From the IMG/VR virus record IMGVR_UViG_3300025759_000435, positions 1 through 30,630 of that record: DNA of 30,630 nucleotides; one strand, written 5' to 3'. The translations under genes and the position numbers were made by a program. Below, in pieces: positions 364 through 30,620 of this stretch. The notes below the pieces were generated by a model, which saw only the letters and a list, made by a program, of their open reading frames with translations, was not told the origin of the DNA and searched no databases. The stretch comes from a virus. How positions within the stretch are numbered: position 1 is the stretch's first letter; every line of letters starts with the position of its first letter.

Positions 364-560
364 TTCGCACCCCCCATGCGGTCGATGGTAGCGGCTTCGA
401 CGGCCTCGGCGACGGTAGGGCCGACACCGTGGCCGGTCTTGTCGCGGTTGCGGGCGTAGATGCGGCACGAGAACTGCTGCGTGCGAGTGTTCCAGCGCAG
501 GCGCACCTCGGGCCGGTCCGTCGAGGACAGCAGCCCAACGAGAAGGGACTCCATGCTCAT
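360..560 (-). CDS. 66-aa hypothetical protein, variable cassette present only in the left allele
   Basis: This small protein has basic strand-forming segments (VRLRWNTRTQQFSCRIYAR) followed by GHGVGPTVAEAVEAATIDRM, giving a strand-strand-strand-helix look. Its layout resembles that of the 79-aa protein two genes downstream (strands, then Gly and PT, then an EA..AA helix), which hints at a shared fold; that is inference. The start overlaps the stop of the upstream RHH-like gene (ATGA) and the stop overlaps the next start (GTGA). The right-end variant lacks exactly this gene, 197 bp, with translational coupling preserved on both sides. It is therefore an optional accessory cassette of the early operon. 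Confidence 0.65.
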   Translation of the reverse strand: MSMESLLVGLLSSTDRPEVRLRWNTRTQQFSCRIYARNRDKTGHGVGPTVAEAVEAATIDRMGGAK

Positions 561-742
561 TCTGCACCTGCCATGCGCTGCAGTGCCTGGCGCTCGATGC
601 GGCGGTTCATGTCGGTCAGCACAAGCGGGCCGATGACCTGCTCGAAGTACTGAGGCACCGAGAGCTTCGCCAAGGCGGCGGCGGCCTTGATGTTGTGTTC
701 GAGCTCGGGGCTGAGACGGGGGCGGAAGGTTGCGGTACTCAT
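557..742 (-). CDS. Ribbon-helix-helix-like small DNA-binding protein
   Basis: The 61-residue product starts with a short strand (STATFRPRLSPEL) followed by two helices (LEHNIKAAAALAKL and VPQYFEQVIGPLVL). That is the order expected of an Arc/CopG/MetJ-type ribbon-helix-helix fold, which binds operator DNA as a dimer. It is encoded in the leftward early operon, downstream of the intergenic region that holds paired operator-like repeats at 1301-1328 and 1385-1555. It is the best visible candidate for a protein acting there, which is an inference from position. The start overlaps the stop of the upstream gene by ATGA. No paired toxin is recognised, so an antitoxin role is less likely. Confidence 0.6.
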   Translation of the reverse strand: MSTATFRPRLSPELEHNIKAAAALAKLSVPQYFEQVIGPLVLTDMNRRIERQALQRMAGAE

Positions 743-1067: not shown

Positions 1068-1279
1068 GCCATCCACGTCTTTGCGCGAAACGCCCGTGAG
1101 TGCCGAGAAATGCGGTCTGCGGTGACGTGGTCCAACTCGGCAAGGTCGGAGTCGGAGGGTGTGCCCCGCTCCCACTGCTGACGCGCGCAGCTCCACATCG
1201 TGACCGTGCGGTCGCGGTGGAGGATGAGGGTGTTGAATCCGTGGCGGTTGGCCTTGGCGGGTCGGTCGGTGCGGTTCAT
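1064..1279 (-). CDS. Hypothetical protein, first gene of the leftward early operon
   Basis: The product has 71 residues and starts at ATG 1279, preceded by AAGGAG at 1286-1291 with good spacing. It is the first gene downstream of the leftward promoter candidate at 1308-1336, with a leader of about 20-30 nt. The chain is basic and polar with no membrane segment: an N-terminal NRTDRPAKANRHGF, then TLILHRDRTVTMW, then an acidic patch (SDSDLAELDHV) and a basic end. I do not recognise a family. First genes of phage early operons often encode small anti-host or regulatory proteins; that is context only. The frame could be read further upstream, but that would cross the promoter. Confidence 0.6.
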   Translation of the reverse strand: MNRTDRPAKANRHGFNTLILHRDRTVTMWSCARQQWERGTPSDSDLAELDHVTADRISRHSRAFRAKTWMA

Positions 1280-1300
1280 GTTTGGCTCCTTGGGGACAGG

Positions 1301-1336
1301 TGGGACACTTGTACCATTGGGACACTTGGCCCACAA
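1301..1336 (-). promoter_or_regulatory. Leftward early promoter with overlapping tandem operator repeats
   Basis: Read on the minus strand, TTGTGG (1331-1336) is followed after 17 bases by TACAAG (1308-1313), with TG one base upstream of the -10 hexamer, an extended -10 arrangement. This is a sigma-70-like candidate about 30 bases ahead of the first early gene. The 11-bp sequence TGGGACACTTG (plus strand) occurs twice, at 1301-1311 and 1318-1328. One copy overlaps the -10 and start region and the other fills the -35/-10 spacer. Such placement is typical of a repressor operator that blocks polymerase. The match to the promoter consensus is partial. Confidence 0.5.
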
Positions 1337-1384
1337 GGACCACGAATGTCATAGTTCGGTCACAGCCGATTTGGCCGGGGACAG

Positions 1385-1555
1385 ACCCTGCACTCTTGAG
1401 AACCCGCCCCTCATCGGCAGAGTGCAGGGTGTGCGGCTTTCGGGTAGATTCTTGAGCACCTGAAATGCACGTTTTTACTACTCGAAGAAATTTCCCCCAA
1501 ACCCTGCATACCCTGCACTCTGTTGATCATTAGGGCATTCTCAAGAGTGCAGGGT
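1385..1555. repeat. Two identical-geometry modules of inverted 11-bp sites (ACCCTGCACTC)
   Basis: The 11-mer ACCCTGCACTC lies at 1385-1395 and 1510-1520, and its exact reverse complement GAGTGCAGGGT at 1420-1430 and 1545-1555. Each inverted pair has a 24-nt spacer, and the modules start 125 bp apart. Flanks extend the match: both reverse sites continue as GTGC, sites one and four share TTGAGAA on their inner side, and sites two and three share TG..GAT. A partial site, ACCCTGCA, lies at 1501-1508 directly before site three. Equal spacing in both modules points to a protein that binds two sites at a fixed distance, such as an origin-binding protein or repressor. Confidence 0.8.
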
Positions 1556-1593
1556 GTGCCCCTCGGTCAGCACGTCATTCTCGGAGATTGTCA

Positions 1594-1836
1594 GTGAATA
1601 CCCCTATGACTACTGAGCAGATTCTTGAGGCGGTGGCGAAGCTCGCGCCGGAAGCCATCACCTGCATCGAGGGCACACTGCAGGGGCGGCAGTCCCCCAA
1701 CAAGGCGCAGCTCGACTCGGCCTGGCGCGTCCTTGAGTGGAGCAAGGAGGCAGCAGCAGTTCGGGCCGAGAAGGCGACGGACACCCCCGACGTCGAGGAG
1801 CTCAAGAACGTGCTCAAGCTGGTCGAGCAGTGGTAG
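1594..1836 (+). CDS. Candidate small terminase subunit (TerS)
   Basis: The product is about 80 aa when started at GTG 1594, which has GGAG (1583-1586) seven bases upstream. ATG 1606 is an alternative start. The chain is helical and charged: TTEQILEAVAKLAPEAI, then LDSAWRVLEWSKEAAAVRAEKA, then an acidic end VEELKNVLKLVEQW. Small terminase subunits recognise phage DNA and feed it to the large subunit. They are short helical proteins whose gene normally lies just ahead of terL, as here (22-bp gap). The call rests on position, size and helical character, because I see no diagnostic motif. It is the first gene of the rightward unit and adjoins the repeat cluster, which could serve as its recognition site. 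Confidence 0.45.
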   Translation: MNTPMTTEQILEAVAKLAPEAITCIEGTLQGRQSPNKAQLDSAWRVLEWSKEAAAVRAEKATDTPDVEELKNVLKLVEQW

Positions 1837-1840
1837 ACTG
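1828..1840 (+). promoter_or_regulatory. Inverted CAGT-N5-ACTG element before terL
   Basis: CAGT (1828-1831) and ACTG (1837-1840) are inverted around five bases at the end of the TerS candidate, just ahead of the terL ribosome-binding site. TG.TAGACT within it also resembles an extended -10 promoter element, but no good -35 was found. Similar elements precede the capsid gene and the first fibre-region gene. Confidence 0.3.
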
Positions 1841-1858
1841 TCCCCGAGAGGACACCCC

Positions 1859-3406
1859 ATGACATACGTACCGCCCAAGGTGCCGGCGGCCCTGCACGAC
1901 AAGGTGCGGGGCCTCGTCGGTGACCCGTCTGCCTTCTGCCGTCTGCATCGAGTGCAGGACAAGGACAGCAAGAGGGAGATTCCCTTCGACCCGTTGCCCA
2001 TGCAGGTCAAAATCTTCGACGCCGTAAAGCGCGGATATAAGCGCATTTTGGTGATAAAGGCGCGACAAGTAGCGGCTACAACAGCCTGCAAGATGGTGCT
2101 CCACCAGCAATGGGCGAGCACCCCGACGGCCGCCCTCTTCGCCCTCGTGTCATTGCGGGCGGAAAGTGCCACGGCCCTCCTCGATGACAACCGCCGCTGG
2201 ATGCACCACCCCCCGAGCATTCTGCAGCGAGACCTCGACACCCGGGCGAAGGGAGAACTACGCCTGGCGGACACCGGGGCAACCCTCAAGGCGTTCACTT
2301 CTCGCAGCTCGACGGGGCTGCGCAGCTTCAGTCCCATCGCTGCACTGCTCAGCGAGTTCGCCTTCGCGCCCGACCAGGAGGAGCTCCTTGCGCAGGCCTT
2401 GTCGGCAGTGGGTGACGGGTTGCTCATGCTGGAGAGCACGGCCAACAACCCAGGCGACCGCTTCAGCGAGCTCATCGCCGGCGCACCCGAGAACGGGTGG
2501 CACCTCATCACTCACTGGTGGTGGGAAGAGCCCAAGTACTGCGACCTGGTACCCGACGACTTCGAGCGCACCGAGGCAGAAGCCGAGCTCGCCGAGGCCT
2601 ACAACCTGACCGACGGGCAGCTTGCGTGGAGGCGTCGCTACCTCGCCACCCTCGGCCCCTACAAGTTCCGACGGGAGTACCCGGCCTGCCTCGATGATTG
2701 CTTCCTCGGGCGGGAGGGCGGCTACTACGGCGAGGAAGTACTGCAGGACATTCACGTCATAGAGCACGAGCTGCACGGCAAGCGACACGGGCGGGAGATT
2801 GAGGCACCGCACCCGCACGACCGGTACGTCATGGGCGTCGACATCGGGGGCGGCGTCGGGGGCGACTACTCGGCTTTGTGCGTCGTCTCGGTCTCGACGA
2901 TGCAGCCGGTCTACACCGAGCGGAACAACCAGGTCACACCCGCCGCATGGGCGCACCGCTGCATCCAGGTCGCCAGCCGCTACAACGACGCGCTCATGCT
3001 CGCCGAGAGCAACAACCACGGGCATGCGTTCCTTCTGGAGCTGACACATTGCGGCTACCGCTACCAGTGGCGGAACCCCCAGGGGAAGCCCTGGGTGACC
3101 ACCCTGCAGTCGAAGCTCGAAGCCTTCGACACCCTGCGCGAGAGCTTGCAGGTCGTCAAGGTGATGGACCGGGTCACCTGGATGGAGCTGCGAAGCCTCA
3201 CCATCCCGGCCGGCAAGGTCGCACCCGAGGCCCCCAAGGGCGGCTACGATGACAGCGCCATGGCGATGGCGTTAGGCTACCGCTGCCTGCGCGACATCCC
3301 GTCATCTTGGCGCACCCATGCGCTACAATCGGGTCGCACCCGCATCGATGACCTCATCAGTCGCAGCCGAGCTCGCCGCATCCGCTCCCACTCTCTCCCC
3401 TTCTGA
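1859..3406 (+). CDS. terL: Terminase large subunit
   Basis: This 515-aa protein is the ATPase-nuclease motor that packages DNA into the prohead. The ATPase half shows a variant P-loop (KARQVAAT, 67-74) of the KARQ type used by many terminases, a Walker-B-like segment IAALLSEFAF (160-169) and the coupling motif LESTANNPGDRF (191-202). The nuclease half shows GVDIGGGVGGDYSA with Asp328 and Asp336, LAESNNHG with Glu383, and YDDSAMAMA with Asp464/Asp465, the usual RNase-H-like acidic set. Start ATG 1859 has GAGAGGACA (1846-1854) upstream; the open frame extends to 1625 but that part is a shadow of the preceding gene. Portal follows 8 bp later. Confidence 0.95.
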   Translation: MTYVPPKVPAALHDKVRGLVGDPSAFCRLHRVQDKDSKREIPFDPLPMQVKIFDAVKRGYKRILVIKARQVAATTACKMVLHQQWASTPTAALFALVSLRAESATALLDDNRRWMHHPPSILQRDLDTRAKGELRLADTGATLKAFTSRSSTGLRSFSPIAALLSEFAFAPDQEELLAQALSAVGDGLLMLESTANNPGDRFSELIAGAPENGWHLITHWWWEEPKYCDLVPDDFERTEAEAELAEAYNLTDGQLAWRRRYLATLGPYKFRREYPACLDDCFLGREGGYYGEEVLQDIHVIEHELHGKRHGREIEAPHPHDRYVMGVDIGGGVGGDYSALCVVSVSTMQPVYTERNNQVTPAAWAHRCIQVASRYNDALMLAESNNHGHAFLLELTHCGYRYQWRNPQGKPWVTTLQSKLEAFDTLRESLQVVKVMDRVTWMELRSLTIPAGKVAPEAPKGGYDDSAMAMALGYRCLRDIPSSWRTHALQSGRTRIDDLISRSRARRIRSHSLPF

Positions 3407-3414
3407 GGCCCCAC

Positions 3415-5118
3415 ATGCTGACCCCCGAGCAGTGCCAGTCTATCTGCATGCAGCACGACCTCTACTGGGACGGCAGGCGCGACGAGCTGCGCGAGCTGCG
3501 AAACCTGTACATGACGCGCTTCTTCCAGTCGACCGCACCGACGCTCGACGGCATCCTCCGCACCGAGGTGCCCAAGGCCTACGCCGTCGTCGAGAGCTAC
3601 CTCGGCAGCCTCTACGCGAAGAACCCCTCGGTCGAGGTCATGCCCGACATTCGAGGGCGGGGCAACGCGGAGGTTGCCGAGGCGACGGCCAACCAGTACC
3701 TGCTCTCGGTGCGCGAGCAGCTCGAAGACGCCACACGCCTGGCGCTCATCTACCCGGCGGGCTTCATCAAGCTCGCACCGGTGCTCAGTGCCGACCCGTT
3801 GAAGCGGGTGAGCTGTGCTGCCCTCTCGCCTTGGGAGGTCATCGTGGACGCTACCGCGACCTCCTGGGAACAGCAGCGCTACGTCGGGCACGTCTACCTC
3901 ATGCCCCTCCTCGAAGCCTCCGAGCGCTACAGCAGGTCGCCCGAGGAGTTCCGCGCCCGTGCCTACTCGAAGTGGATTGAGTCCACGGGCATCGCCGGCA
4001 AGGACCAGCTGCTGGGGCTGGGTGACCCGACGCAGACGCCGCCAGAAGAACAGTGGGTGCGAGTGGTCGAGCTCTACGACCTGCTCGGGGATGCGCTCGT
4101 GGTGTGGTCCCCGGACTACGCCGACGGCAAGGAGCACCTCTTCGAGGGTGTGCAGGTGCAGGTCGGAGCCCTCGACCCCGAGGCGGCAGCCGACGCAGAC
4201 CGACCCGATGCCGAGCTCGAACACGAGACAACGGGCATCCCCTACAAGACCGCCAACGGTCGCCCGGTCGTCCCCATCATTCCCCTGTACTTCAGTCGCG
4301 ACCCCGACACCCCCCTGCGCGGCTACTCGCTCATCCGTCGGAGCCTCGACCAGTTCCGAGAGCTCAACGTCATGCGCACGTACCAAGCGCAGGGCGTGCG
4401 GCGCATGGCTCGGCAGTGGATGGTACGGGCGGGCTTCCTGTCCGAGGATGGTGCGGCGAAGATTGCGCAGGGGCTGGACGGCGAGTTCATCGAGGTCGAC
4501 CTCCAACCGGGTGCCCCCCTCGAAGGCAACATGATGCCGGTGCCCCAGGCGCCCATCCCTGCCGACATCAGCATCTACTCGCAGACGGTGCAGGCCGACA
4601 TCAACGAGGCAGGCCTTCTCGCCCCATTCACGAGAGGAGAGGTGACCAAGAGCACAGCCACCGAGCAACAGCTTCTCGCGGCCTACACGAGCAGCGAGGT
4701 CGGGCGGATGGCGCGGACCCGAGACGCCGTCATCACCTCCATCGCGAAGACCTACAACATCATGCTCAGTGTGGTGCTCGGAGACGACGCCGAGCCCCTC
4801 GCCTTGCCCAACCCGGTCGGCCCCACCATCCTCTCGGCCGATGACCTCACCGGCGACTTCGGCTACTGGGCAGTCGACGCAGGCACCACCCCGATGAGCG
4901 ACCTTGCGAAGCAGCAGGCACTTGAGCGCCTGGTGCCCCTCCTCGTCCAGCTCGGTGCCGACCCTCGGCAGGTGCTCGGCGAGCTCGTGCGCACGTACCA
5001 GCTCCCCGAGTCCTTCGCCGAGGTTGCCGAGCCTCAACCCGTCGAGCCTTCCGCCCCTACCGGTCCCGCTCCCCTCCCGTTCCCCGCAGCAGGGGGACTC
5101 CCCCCCGAAGGTGCCTGA
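3415..5118 (+). CDS. Portal protein (head-tail connector)
   Basis: At 567 aa, directly after terL, this matches podovirus portals in size and position. The portal forms the dodecameric channel at one capsid vertex, docks the terminase during packaging and carries the tail. Visible family-like segments are the N-terminal helical part with VPKAYAVVESYLGSLYAKNP, LSPWEVIVDATATSWEQ, the PVVPIIPLYFSRDPDTPLRGYSLIRRSLDQF region leading into the long wing helices, and the channel region VTKSTATEQQLLAAYTSSEV. The C-terminus is Pro/Glu-rich and low in complexity. GAGG lies seven bases before ATG 3415. The stop abuts the ATG of the next gene. Confidence 0.88.
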   Translation: MLTPEQCQSICMQHDLYWDGRRDELRELRNLYMTRFFQSTAPTLDGILRTEVPKAYAVVESYLGSLYAKNPSVEVMPDIRGRGNAEVAEATANQYLLSVREQLEDATRLALIYPAGFIKLAPVLSADPLKRVSCAALSPWEVIVDATATSWEQQRYVGHVYLMPLLEASERYSRSPEEFRARAYSKWIESTGIAGKDQLLGLGDPTQTPPEEQWVRVVELYDLLGDALVVWSPDYADGKEHLFEGVQVQVGALDPEAAADADRPDAELEHETTGIPYKTANGRPVVPIIPLYFSRDPDTPLRGYSLIRRSLDQFRELNVMRTYQAQGVRRMARQWMVRAGFLSEDGAAKIAQGLDGEFIEVDLQPGAPLEGNMMPVPQAPIPADISIYSQTVQADINEAGLLAPFTRGEVTKSTATEQQLLAAYTSSEVGRMARTRDAVITSIAKTYNIMLSVVLGDDAEPLALPNPVGPTILSADDLTGDFGYWAVDAGTTPMSDLAKQQALERLVPLLVQLGADPRQVLGELVRTYQLPESFAEVAEPQPVEPSAPTGPAPLPFPAAGGLPPEGA

Positions 5119-27193: not shown

Positions 27194-29464
27194 TCATGTC
27201 GTGGGGGTGTTGTGCTCGAAGTCCGAGCGGGTGAGTCGCTTGATTGCGAGGATGCCGGTGCCGTTGCCTTCGGGCATCCCGTCCTTGAAGTAGTAGGTGA
27301 CGCCTGCGCTGCGATACCTTGTAAACCCAACCGAGTGCAGTGCGGAGGACAAAGAAAGTCCGAAACGTTGCACGCTTAGGTTGTGGTCAATGGCAGAGGC
27401 AAACTCGGCAACGGTGAACCGGTTGCGCTTGCCGCCCTTGTTGGCCTCATGGGCGCAGCTTGCACACTGGGTGAACCAGTCGAGGTACTGGAAGACGCCG
27501 TTGGCCTTGCGGTTCCAGCGGCTTTCCTCCTTCGTGAGCCACCACTGCTCGCCATCCTGGAACCGCTTGTAGGCCTCGGCGAGCAGCTGGTCGCGGTACT
27601 TGCGCAGCCAGTCGAGGTTCGCGCTCTCGCCCGTGCAGGCGACAACCCAGTAGCGTCGGCTTCCGGTGCGGTCGCGCAGAACGTCCCACTCGTTCGAGGT
27701 CATCGTGATGACGGTGTGCCGGCGGTACGTGCGCATCTTGCGCCCGAAGGGCGGGCGGAAGCGGTCGACGGCCGAGGTGATGAAGGCCTTGCGCGTCTCC
27801 TGGTCTGCGTTCGAGCTTCCTGCCATCTCGGCGTCTTCGTAGATGAGGGCGCTGTAGAGCTGCAAGTAGCAGTCCTTGTCCTTGATGTTGAAGCGGGTGT
27901 CGCTGTAGAGCTCGGACTGCCCCGGCCAGTTCGCCCACTCTCGCCACACCGACGACTTGCCCCAGCCCTGGGGACCGGTGAGCAACATGCAGGTGTGGAG
28001 CTGACAGCCGGGCGAGAAGAGGCGAGCCATGAGGCCGATGCACCACTTCGAGGCATACGTGCGGTAGATGGGCAGGTCTTCGGCACCGCACACTTCGAGA
28101 AGCCAGCGGTCAATCCGAGGGCAGCCGTCCCATTCGAGCGACTTGACGTAGTCCTGCACGGGGTTGCGAGAGGCCTGACGGCAGACGAACTCGACGGCCC
28201 CGAAGAGCAGCTCGCGCCCGACGCGCCAGTGCCAGTCGTAGGCCAGTTCCATGTGGGTGATCACGCGCACCCAAATGCCGTCGTCTACTGCGTCATGCCC
28301 ATCCATCTCGCACTGCCGAAACAAATCGAACCAGAGACTGAAGCTGGCGTCATGCGTCAGCATGCGGTGCAGGTTGCTGACCGAGTTCTTGATGCGGCCG
28401 GGGCTGCCGTCGCGCTTCGCCGGCTCTCGGTGCAGCTCCACCAGGCCGGGCTTGCTCGCAGGCCGGTAGCTGTTCCAGTAGGTGCGCGCCTGGGGGCCGG
28501 AGTAGTAGCGGGCGCGGCCGTCTGCCTCTCGATGGAAGAAGCCACTGCCGACGCTACTGCCGCCGAAGGGGCAGATGACCTTGAGGCGCTCCCCGGGTGC
28601 GAGGGCGTCTGCCATCTGCTGCCATGACCGCCCATCGCTGAGACGCTGGGACCGGAAGTCGATGTCGACCGAGGTTGCCTGCCGAGGCCGGCGACGCTTC
28701 GGGACGACGTCCGTCTTGGCTCTGGCCTTGTCGTTGTCGGTGAGCTGTGCCTGCCGCACCCACTGCACCCGAAGACGGCCGATGGCGTCGGAGTCGAGAA
28801 CGGTGTCGGAGGCGGCTACCACCTCGACGGGCTGCACCCGGAATGAACACTTCGTGTTCATGCTGCCCGGTGCACGGGCGAGGCGGGCGCCTACGTCATG
28901 CGTCCGGTCAAAGGCTCGGTGGTACGTGTTGAGCGGAGGCGAGAAGCCCTGCGCGAGCTCGGCGGCCTGGCGGTTGCACTCGTCCACGATGGCAGCGTGC
29001 ACTTCCTGCAGGGCGGCCTTCTCCTCTCGCATCGCAGGGTGTACGCCGAAGTGGAAGTGCCAGCCCCAACCGCTGCAGATGGTGAGGGTAGGGGGCGCAC
29101 CGACGACCGCTTCGAGGATGCCGCCGATGTCATCGAGGAGCAGACCGAGGAAGGCCTCCCGCTGCTCTTCGGGCATTTGGTACATGTGCGCCTTGCGGTC
29201 GGCAGCCTTGTCGGGCAGCTCCGAGCCTCGGGCAAGTCGGGCGGCGTCCACCAGGCCGAGCATGTCGAGGTCGAAGAAGAGGGAGGTGACCCCCCTGCAG
29301 TTCTCGACCGACCGACCGCGCCCTTGCTTGTCGACGACTCCCCGGAAGAAGAAGCCCGTGCTGATGTAGTCGCCGCCCTTCAGGGACTGCTCGACGTAGC
29401 AGCACCCCTCGGGAGGCTCCGGCCATACGGACCGGACCCGGGTGTCAGGATGCTTCGCGTTCAC
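27194..29464 (-). CDS. Primase-helicase fusion (AEP-like primase plus VapE/SF3-type helicase)
   Basis: The 756-aa protein carries two enzymes needed to start replication. The N-terminal third resembles archaeo-eukaryotic primase/primpol domains: SLFFDLD (61-67, DxD metal site), CSGWGWHFHFG (130-140, sGxGxH motif) and RLARAPGSMNTK (194-205). A short linker with CPFGG near 298-302 follows. The C-terminal part is VapE-like: LEWDGCPRIDRWLLE (443-456), P-loop TGPQGWGKSS (496-505), Walker B-like ALIYEDAEM (539-547), VITMTSNEWDVLRD (585-598) and GSRRYWVV (601-608). It starts at GTG 29464, overlapping the upstream gene by 20 bp. An ATG nearer the domain is not available in this stretch. No DNA polymerase gene is present, so host polymerase must extend its primers. 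Confidence 0.85.
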   Translation of the reverse strand: MNAKHPDTRVRSVWPEPPEGCCYVEQSLKGGDYISTGFFFRGVVDKQGRGRSVENCRGVTSLFFDLDMLGLVDAARLARGSELPDKAADRKAHMYQMPEEQREAFLGLLLDDIGGILEAVVGAPPTLTICSGWGWHFHFGVHPAMREEKAALQEVHAAIVDECNRQAAELAQGFSPPLNTYHRAFDRTHDVGARLARAPGSMNTKCSFRVQPVEVVAASDTVLDSDAIGRLRVQWVRQAQLTDNDKARAKTDVVPKRRRPRQATSVDIDFRSQRLSDGRSWQQMADALAPGERLKVICPFGGSSVGSGFFHREADGRARYYSGPQARTYWNSYRPASKPGLVELHREPAKRDGSPGRIKNSVSNLHRMLTHDASFSLWFDLFRQCEMDGHDAVDDGIWVRVITHMELAYDWHWRVGRELLFGAVEFVCRQASRNPVQDYVKSLEWDGCPRIDRWLLEVCGAEDLPIYRTYASKWCIGLMARLFSPGCQLHTCMLLTGPQGWGKSSVWREWANWPGQSELYSDTRFNIKDKDCYLQLYSALIYEDAEMAGSSNADQETRKAFITSAVDRFRPPFGRKMRTYRRHTVITMTSNEWDVLRDRTGSRRYWVVACTGESANLDWLRKYRDQLLAEAYKRFQDGEQWWLTKEESRWNRKANGVFQYLDWFTQCASCAHEANKGGKRNRFTVAEFASAIDHNLSVQRFGLSLSSALHSVGFTRYRSAGVTYYFKDGMPEGNGTGILAIKRLTRSDFEHNTPTT

Positions 29465-29951
29465 GTTCTTCTCGCATGATGGACCCCACCAAGGTGCGGC
29501 TGAAGTTGAAGGGGATGTCGCCGTCTGCCTTGATGCAGTCGGTGATGACTCTCGCGCTCATGCCCGGGTAGTCGGCGAGGTATTCCCGCACCTCACGAGT
29601 CAGAAGCCACCGTCGCCGAGTGCTGCCCGATGCGATGCCGAGGCGAGCCCGGGCACCCTGCACGGTGGTGACCCCTACGTGTACGCGGAACTTGTCGGTC
29701 ATCATCTGCGCGAGCTCTCGGTCATGGGCATAGGGGTGCTCGTGGATGAGGAGCTCGACTTGCGCAGCAATGAAGCCGGCCGGGCGGGTGAGGCCCATCT
29801 TGTACCAGCGGAAGCTGAGACCAGACGGAGCGATACCAAGGGCAAGGGCCGCCTCGGTCATCACTTCGGCCTTCGCTCGCAGCCCAATGGCCTCGTCGTA
29901 GCGTTGCCGCCACTCGACCGTCTGCTTGACCTGGTCCTTGCTGAGCCTCAT
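29445..29951 (-). CDS. Multi-HTH DNA-binding protein upstream of the primase-helicase
   Basis: The 168-aa product shows three helix-turn-helix-like stretches: AALALGIAPSGLSFRWYKMG (about 34-53), DRELAQMMTDKFRVHVGV with TTVQGARARLGIA (about 77-107), and LTREVREYLADYPGMSARV with ITDCIKADG, then NFSRTLVGSIM (about 116-160). The last two share a pattern: acidic helix, a turn with M/V, then a recognition-like helix ending in R or M. Direct linkage to the primase-helicase and the spaced repeats at the operon start make it a candidate origin-binding or regulatory protein, by inference. The ATG overlaps the upstream 79-aa gene stop (ATGA). Confidence 0.6.
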   Translation of the reverse strand: MRLSKDQVKQTVEWRQRYDEAIGLRAKAEVMTEAALALGIAPSGLSFRWYKMGLTRPAGFIAAQVELLIHEHPYAHDRELAQMMTDKFRVHVGVTTVQGARARLGIASGSTRRRWLLTREVREYLADYPGMSARVITDCIKADGDIPFNFSRTLVGSIMREEREREAS

Positions 29952-30187
29952 GGTACTACCTCCGTCATACGCTCAAAGGTGAGGTCGAGCATGTGAGTCG
30001 TGGCGGCGGCCATGGCTTCGAGTCTGGTGGGGCAGATGCCGTGCACCTCGACCGCGCCCCCGAGCTCGCAGACCTTCCAGTGCCACCCGCCGGCGACGGG
30101 GCGCACCTCGGCGTCTCGGTAGGGCTTGCGGAGGGTGCGCTGCCATCCGGTCGCGAATGCTGCCCACTGCGTCAGGGGCGGTCTCAT
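29948..30187 (-). CDS. Hypothetical 79-aa small early protein, complete (right allele)
   Basis: This is the full-length counterpart of the truncated gene at 1-235. Its stop overlaps the start of the multi-HTH gene (ATGA), and its start overlaps the stop of the 102-aa gene (ATGA), while in the left allele the same start overlaps the 43-aa gene. The chain has PPLTQWAAFATGWQR, YRDAEV, WHWKVCELGG and a final Ala-rich helix. The arrangement of strands, Gly, PT and an EA..AA helix is similar to the 66-aa protein at 360-560. No function was recognised. Silent differences between the alleles support coding under purifying selection. Confidence 0.72.
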   Translation of the reverse strand: MRPPLTQWAAFATGWQRTLRKPYRDAEVRPVAGGWHWKVCELGGAVEVHGICPTRLEAMAAATTHMLDLTFERMTEVVP

Positions 30188-30492
30188 GCCTCACCCCCCG
30201 GCCACCGACCGATCGCAGCGGCGACGCTAATGCACGCGCGCCCGATGTTTGCGGCCCGTCCATGCAAGCCAGCAACCTGCACGATTGTCGTTCGCCCGTC
30301 TCCACCGACGACGACGACCGGCCCTCCAAGCAGCCTGAGTAGCCACCCTTCCCACGCCCAGTGGTCGGGGTCCACTCGGTACGCAGCCCATCCAATCAGG
30401 TCGGGGCGACACTTCCAACCCGGAATCGAGACCGCGAGGCTGCCCCACTCGGAGGCGGGAGCGTCAGGGGCGGGCAGTTCGAAGGCGGTCAT
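30184..30492 (-). CDS. 102-aa hypothetical protein, variable cassette present only in the right allele
   Basis: The product contains ASEWGSLAVSIPGWKCRPDL, WAAYRVDPDHWAWEGWLLRL, then GGPVVVVGGDGRTTIVQVAG and ACISVAAAIGR. It is Trp-rich, with a likely beta-strand pair in the second half, and no family was recognised. Its start overlaps the stop of the 43-aa gene and its stop overlaps the start of the 79-aa gene, both by ATGA. In the left allele this 305-bp unit is absent and the 43-aa and 79-aa genes overlap directly by ATGA. It is therefore an exchangeable early cassette. It contains one of only four GATC sites seen in the window. Confidence 0.65.
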   Translation of the reverse strand: MTAFELPAPDAPASEWGSLAVSIPGWKCRPDLIGWAAYRVDPDHWAWEGWLLRLLGGPVVVVGGDGRTTIVQVAGLHGRAANIGRACISVAAAIGRWPGGEA

Positions 30493-30620
30493 GCTGCCAC
30501 CCCGTACTCACTGGCGCAGTCCCACCAGCCGTCTTCGACGCCCTTGCGGTAGCCGGAGTCGTAGCTGCAGCGGGCGAAGACGGCGGCGAAGATGAGAAGG
30601 AAGGCGTAGATGCGGGTCAT
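30489..30620 (-). CDS. 43-aa membrane-anchored or secreted small protein (right allele)
   Basis: This is the second copy of the gene at 232-363, nearly identical in DNA, with at least one silent change (the Ala codon GCC for GCG in DCASEY). Here it starts with ATG at 30620 because the upstream partner is the RHH-like gene, whose stop it overlaps by ATGA. In the left allele the 66-aa cassette intervenes and the start is GTG. The N-terminal hydrophobic segment and Cys-containing polar tail are the same. Confidence 0.6.
   Translation of the reverse strand: MTRIYAFLLIFAAVFARCSYDSGYRKGVEDGWWDCASEYGVAA

Follow-up and report, generated by a model that had tools for sequence, protein, structure and literature searches.

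We analyzed a 30,630-bp stretch of viral DNA (referred to in its full length as the window) in which two mirror-image modules of inverted sites, located between divergent gene blocks, probably form a SaPI-Rep-like origin of replication. Comparison with related phages makes it fairly likely that this region is the phage replication origin and that each ACCCTGCAC within it would be bound by the C-terminal winged helix of a VapE-type primase-helicase. Binding of these arms by the primase, melting of the AT-rich centre and the start of copying at this place are each steps that we infer. A first-pass annotation of the window had offered four uses for the site pairs, namely an origin, a partition-like site, a TerS recognition site or a repressor switch; the origin fits best among them, a repressor or promoter switch is possible, the TerS reading is disfavoured and the partition reading found no support, as discussed below.

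Paired sites in the window and their conservation among relatives

The sites sit in a divergent gap (Table 1). Leftward, minus-strand genes run from about 1.3 kb and continue at the other window end from 30.2 down to 24.8 kb, where they encode SSB, a nuclease, a RuvC-like resolvase, Erf, the VapE-type primase-helicase and small proteins; rightward from 1591 lie the genes for TerS, TerL and the structural proteins. Cumulative GC skew, suggested by the first-pass annotation as a check, does peak at the sites. However, all genes tested, on one arm as on the other, had a negative coding-strand GC3 skew, and the skew turn thus follows gene direction; being confounded in this way it is uninformative, and we set it aside as evidence for an origin. 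At the two window ends (1-400 and about 29950-30600) we observed diverged near-copies of one stretch, in which paralogues of 79 and 82 aa lie. The ends share no exact terminal repeat, and the near-copies reflect either the duplication of a gene in tandem or variation between strains at the joint of a circle.

The 11-mer ACCCTGCACTC occurs exactly four times in the 30,630 bp, at 1385-1395 (+), 1420-1430 (-), 1510-1520 (+) and 1545-1555 (-). Starts within a pair lie 35 bp apart, leaving a spacer of 24 nt, or of 28 nt if only the conserved 9-mer ACCCTGCAC is counted as arm, and the second module starts 125 bp after the first. Among 200 randomised windows generated by a first-order Markov model, none had two inverted pairs of 8-mers or 9-mers lying within 300 bp. 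The two inverted-pair modules with equal spacing that had been read from the letters are therefore real, and so is the criss-cross sharing of their flanks: sites 1 and 4 have ...CTCTTGAGAA in common and sites 2 and 3 have ...CTCTG..GAT, because module 2 repeats module 1 in inverted and diverged form (arms of 67 nt, 76% complementary). The AT-rich patch claimed between the modules was also confirmed, the surrounding sequence having an AT content of only about 34%. Missing from the original set of four exact sites was a fifth, partial one, which is a perfect ACCCTGCAC in four relatives (L005, L042, L027 and L025). In addition, a weak repeated GATCATTAGGGCATTCTCAAG-like element was noticed inside the spacers and beyond module 2 (1396-1419, 1524-1544 and 1563-1580); it is clearer in a group of relatives represented by L148 (GATGAATAGCGCRTTCTCG), where copies also flank the modules.

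Table 1. Positions of the sites, genes and domains discussed in the text
Feature	Position in window	Strand	Remarks
HicB-like ribbon-helix-helix (RHH) protein, 61 aa, conserved	557..742	(-)	rival binder, more likely a ligand of the TGTCA repeat
TGTCATAGTTCGGTCACAG direct repeat, (T/G)GTCA	1347..1365	(+)	period of 11 bp; single occurrence in the window; lies left of module 1 in classes A, B and C
Module 1	1385..1430		arms ACCCTGCAC at 1385-1393 (+) and 1422-1430 (-); 28-nt spacer; 46 bp outer to outer
Inter-module gap, locally AT-rich, candidate melting region	1431..1509		AT-richest 40 bp at 1452-1491, 62%
Fifth, imperfect arm	1501..1509	(+)	ACCCTGCAT (site text ACCCTGCATAC at 1501), in tandem with site 3
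Module 2	1510..1555		arms ACCCTGCAC at 1510-1518 (+) and 1547-1555 (-); 28-nt spacer; 46 bp
TerS-like gene, first of the rightward late block	1591..1836	(+)	disfavoured as arm binder
C-terminal winged-helix domain (about residues 677-746), proposed to bind arms	27227..27436	(-)	AlphaFold and column statistics
VapE-like primase-helicase, proposed initiator	27195..29464	(-)	Pfam PF05272, E=1.5e-62; PDB 7pds, E=1.4e-26
Multi-HTH protein	29445..29951	(-)	without homologue in most relatives carrying arms

We gathered relatives through TerL (56 loci) and through the primase (24); searching with a TerL profile extended the set to phages with as little as 67% TerL identity. Among named phages, window positions 1100-3600 had no DNA match, and TerL and VapE gave only distant matches. 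In 18 distinct relatives with arms of the same type (class A), the 9-bp arms were 96-100% identical and the spacer was exactly 28 nt in both modules, whereas the spacer sequence was only 54-57% identical and the inter-module gap varied from 78 to 83 bp. Thus, arm sequence and within-module distance are constrained and the remainder much less so. The exact class A module (ACCCTGCAC-N28-GTGCAGGGT) was found in 26 stretches of IMG/VR, 25 of them from this phage group, compared to about 1 expected for equal base frequencies and a database size that we estimate ourselves at about 6e10 bases; in cellular genomes (genome_contigs) the 4 matches compared to 3.7 expected on the same assumption are at chance level, and no primase relative was found there; neither result points to prophage copies. 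The first-pass annotation had named absence of the pairs in close relatives as a refutation, and its proposal passed this test.

Upstream of TerL, several relatives (L012, L016, L017, L045 and L057) have extra genes between TerS and TerL, apparently DNA methyltransferases as judged from their sequence, and L052 has a pentapeptide-repeat-like sequence. In more distant phages with a primase of 38% identity, two copies of a TTTACAATGTAAA-containing inverted pair lie 99 bp apart (L176:5179-5341, L178:5179-5341 and L175:1844-2006); the same phages have a second pair set (TTTGAGGGG), possibly marking another type of origin.

Arm classes and the candidate reader of the arms

Two further arm classes were found among the relatives. 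Class C (L020-L022 and L024) has ACCCGTCCC-type arms with spacers of 36/37 nt, and class B (L033-L038 and L045) has C-rich CCCCCCTC-type arms, which are runs of C and make the class B geometry ambiguous. All classes have the form ACCC-NN-C-N-C in common. Within a genome all arms switch together, and both spacers change together too, which argues that one diffusible protein reads the arms and speaks against hairpins. The invariance of the spacing while spacer sequences drift, together with the joint switching of the arms, strongly supports the earlier suggestion of a bound protein complex with fixed spacing. As far as sequence comparison can tell, the arms are real, conserved elements read by a protein. 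In a tree of the primase core, class A is paraphyletic and classes B and C are derived separately; the covariation described below comprises two switching events, and the class C sequences are few. One relative (L008) has mixed arms 300 bp upstream of its TerS (ACCCCCCAC, ACCCCGCAC, ACCCTGCAC and ACCCCACAC), as if it stood between classes; its primase is not on its contig.

The best candidate for the reader of the arms, judged by covariation across these classes, is the VapE-type primase-helicase, whose helicase match in the PDB is described as 'similar to D. nodosus vapE'. It was present, full-length or in part, in most fetched members, the remaining members being short contigs. Its AlphaFold model was poor over the full length (mean pLDDT 46), and the C-terminal domain was modelled alone, giving a winged helix with pLDDT 82-89 over most of the domain. 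Searched against PDB folds, the model gave only weak winged-helix-like matches (Z up to 6.2); SaPI Rep was not among them, which counts neither for nor against a likeness to it. The domain had no sequence match to solved C-terminal domains.

Three gap-free primase columns (373, 429 and 723) show no variation within class A but differ in B as well as in C. We next restricted the analysis to the 161 columns that are identical in all of class A and in outgroups down to 38% identity. Of these universal columns, 4 changed in class B and 2 in class C, and T723 alone changed in both, compared to 0.05 columns expected. T723 (27296-27298) is N in class B and K in class C, and it is positioned at the start of the second wing strand of the modelled winged helix. 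Both class C changes, at 706 in the recognition helix and at 723 in the wing, fall in the C-terminal domain. A comparison of evolutionary rates between the C-terminal domain and the core was dropped as evidence; class B evolved faster, but so did some class A branches.

More distant relatives extend this pattern. TGCAC arms accompany primases of only 53-54% identity that carry T723 in two groups: L148/L155-L161, with mirrored modules and 39-nt spacers, and L169/L181, with eight ACCCTGCAC-type sites in a mirror-symmetric array that has tandem repeats beside its centre. In L144/L145/L151/L152 (TerL 78%), arms were not recognisable in the same gap, and the one recovered primase (L194) keeps T at 723; here the origin may have moved or changed form. 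T723 is likewise kept in L195/L196 (primase 38% identical), in which TGCAC arms were not found. T723 is thus not sufficient for TGCAC arms, and we regard its covariation with arm class as a strong lead rather than proof.

Alternative readings of the sites

A weaker rival among the candidate binders is the 61-aa RHH protein, which in place of the primase could bind the arms as a regulator or as an accessory factor of the origin. It is present in nearly all relatives, and its residue 13 is acidic in every sequence seen outside classes B and C, R in B and S/H in C. The beta-strand is the usual base-reading part of RHH proteins, yet this strand (FRPRLS) hardly differs between classes A, B and C though the arms change, and it becomes KYRVELS in L169/L181, where the arms stay ACCCTGCAC. 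What the protein tracks better than the arms is the TGTCA repeat to their left. Two or three units of the (T/G)GTCA repeat persist in classes A, B and C as well as in the L148 group. The repeat is lost in L169/L181 and L144/L152, where the RHH beta-strand differs, which suggests the RHH protein as its binder. The repeat at 1347-1365 is probably the site of a second factor, for which the RHH protein would be a better candidate there than at the arms, and we hold RHH binding at the arms to be quite improbable. Just upstream of the first leftward gene (1295-1345) we also observed GGGACA / TGGGACACTTG / GTACCA-type repeats, whose sequence in relatives depends on class and which are possible further regulatory sites.

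Unlikely, in our estimate, is a reading without an origin in which the modules are operators: a phage regulator would bind the paired sites and control both promoters, those of the early block running leftward and of the late block running rightward. The region does sit between these divergent blocks, conserved spacing would suit a looping repressor, and promoter-like hexamers can be picked out by eye inside module 2 of L148 (TTGCGA-N18-TATAAT) and of class C (TTGTCG-N18-TACAAT). However, a consensus scan for sigma-70-like promoters, which did not cover other promoter types, found none at 1050-1900 of the window, the protein that covaries best is a replicative primase-helicase, and the eight-site array of L169/L181 is more origin-like. 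Given the hexamers inside module 2, a combined origin and operator is possible, as is an overlap with divergent promoters and hence self-regulation.

The readings that place the sites in packaging, partition or RNA structure fit less well. Phage pac sites are often in or near the terS gene, and about 35 bp separate the end of the sites from the TerS-like start codon; but of 76 TerS columns not one was constant throughout class A and different in class B, although the arms changed, and a pac site that lies ahead of the terminase genes and is recognised by TerS is very improbable. The multi-HTH protein, also named as a candidate by the first-pass annotation, was rejected as a binder, being absent from most relatives that keep the arms. 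No support emerged for a partition-like site, and no ParA/ParB-type gene was found among ten proteins scanned against Pfam. Each inverted pair could in principle form a hairpin in RNA or DNA, with a stem of 9-12 bp and a loop of 22-28 nt. Pairing alone would permit the modules to drift apart, whereas the same arm sequence recurs in both modules and in all genomes of a class; moreover, extra arms occur as direct repeats, and neither an Rfam match, another RNA family nor a tRNA was found. Function as hairpins is accordingly hardly credible.

Proposed mechanism and comparison with known systems

For the origin bound by the primase-helicase, we propose that two inverted sites at a fixed distance would make up one module and position one helicase assembly. 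Mirror-image modules flanking the AT-rich stretch would then let two assemblies load in opposite directions, and the loaded assemblies would open the AT-rich centre and allow bidirectional copying. Within-module spacers of 28 nt in class A, 36-37 nt in class C and 39 nt in the L148 group are roughly one helical turn apart. The complete scheme, a mirror-symmetric origin whose rigid inverted-pair modules each place one self-loading VapE helicase in opposite orientations and whose specificity switches via a single wing residue (T to N, T to K), is tentative, and we would put it at somewhat less than an even chance. For this family of uncultured phages, comparison alone names a probable origin, its probable initiator and a residue that probably sets specificity. 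Short DNA probes and point mutants could then be used to test how self-loading helicases of the VapE or D5 type find origins and load onto them, with the natural A, B and C pairs as ready-made controls.

The closest known counterpart is the SaPI Rep/ori system. In SaPIbov1, iteron sets lie on both sides of an AT-rich stretch. The phage loci likewise have multiple short specific repeats (in the window four exact sites plus an imperfect one, and in L169/L181 eight), an AT-rich region between the repeat sets (62-85% AT in class A loci) and a candidate initiator whose AAA+ helicase domain is VapE-like or related to that type (PF05272, 7pds). In both systems a self-loading initiator helicase of the VapE family or related to it goes with short repeated sites and with recognition by a C-terminal domain (PMC7581432), the latter being predicted for the phage. 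SaPI origins lie just downstream of rep (PMC7581432), in contrast to the phage sites, which are upstream and separated from the primase gene by several other genes. Furthermore, the phage has two inverted pairs at a fixed distance in mirror-image modules instead of runs of short direct repeats, its primase and helicase are one protein, and the carrier is a tailed phage of roughly 30 kb. Because gene order differs and origin function here is predicted, we do not file the phage locus as a member of the SaPI type.

Iterons of plasmid origins are direct repeats, and the initiator of iteron plasmids is not known to be a helicase itself. Direct tandem repeats in phase were not found in the window, where the arms are inverted and the fifth site alone is a tandem direct copy. 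What the phage locus would share with these origins is an initiator that binds short repeats next to an AT-rich region of unwinding, as described in PMC4980987. SaPI Rep and SCCmec Cch2 bind origin repeats with their C-terminal domain, probably as two hexamers (PMC7581432). For the putative Cch2 origin, the likeness to the phage locus is that the C-terminal domain of the initiator helicase, taken by itself, binds the repeats (PMC7581432), a role predicted for the phage domain; unlike in the phage, however, the Cch2 site consists of three 5-nt direct repeats and its inverted repeats are dispensable for binding, whereas the inverted pairs are the conserved part of the phage modules. PLE RepA, from a satellite of Vibrio cholerae, offers a precedent for the switching: its DNA-binding domain and the origin iterons switch together in nature, and cognate pairs work only together (PMC8263062). 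It differs in being a RepA_N-type initiator for which helicase activity is not predicted (PMC7145576) and in having semi-palindromic repeats of about 30 bp. By analogy with SaPI Rep, Cch2 and PLE RepA, each phage module would place one VapE helicase assembly.
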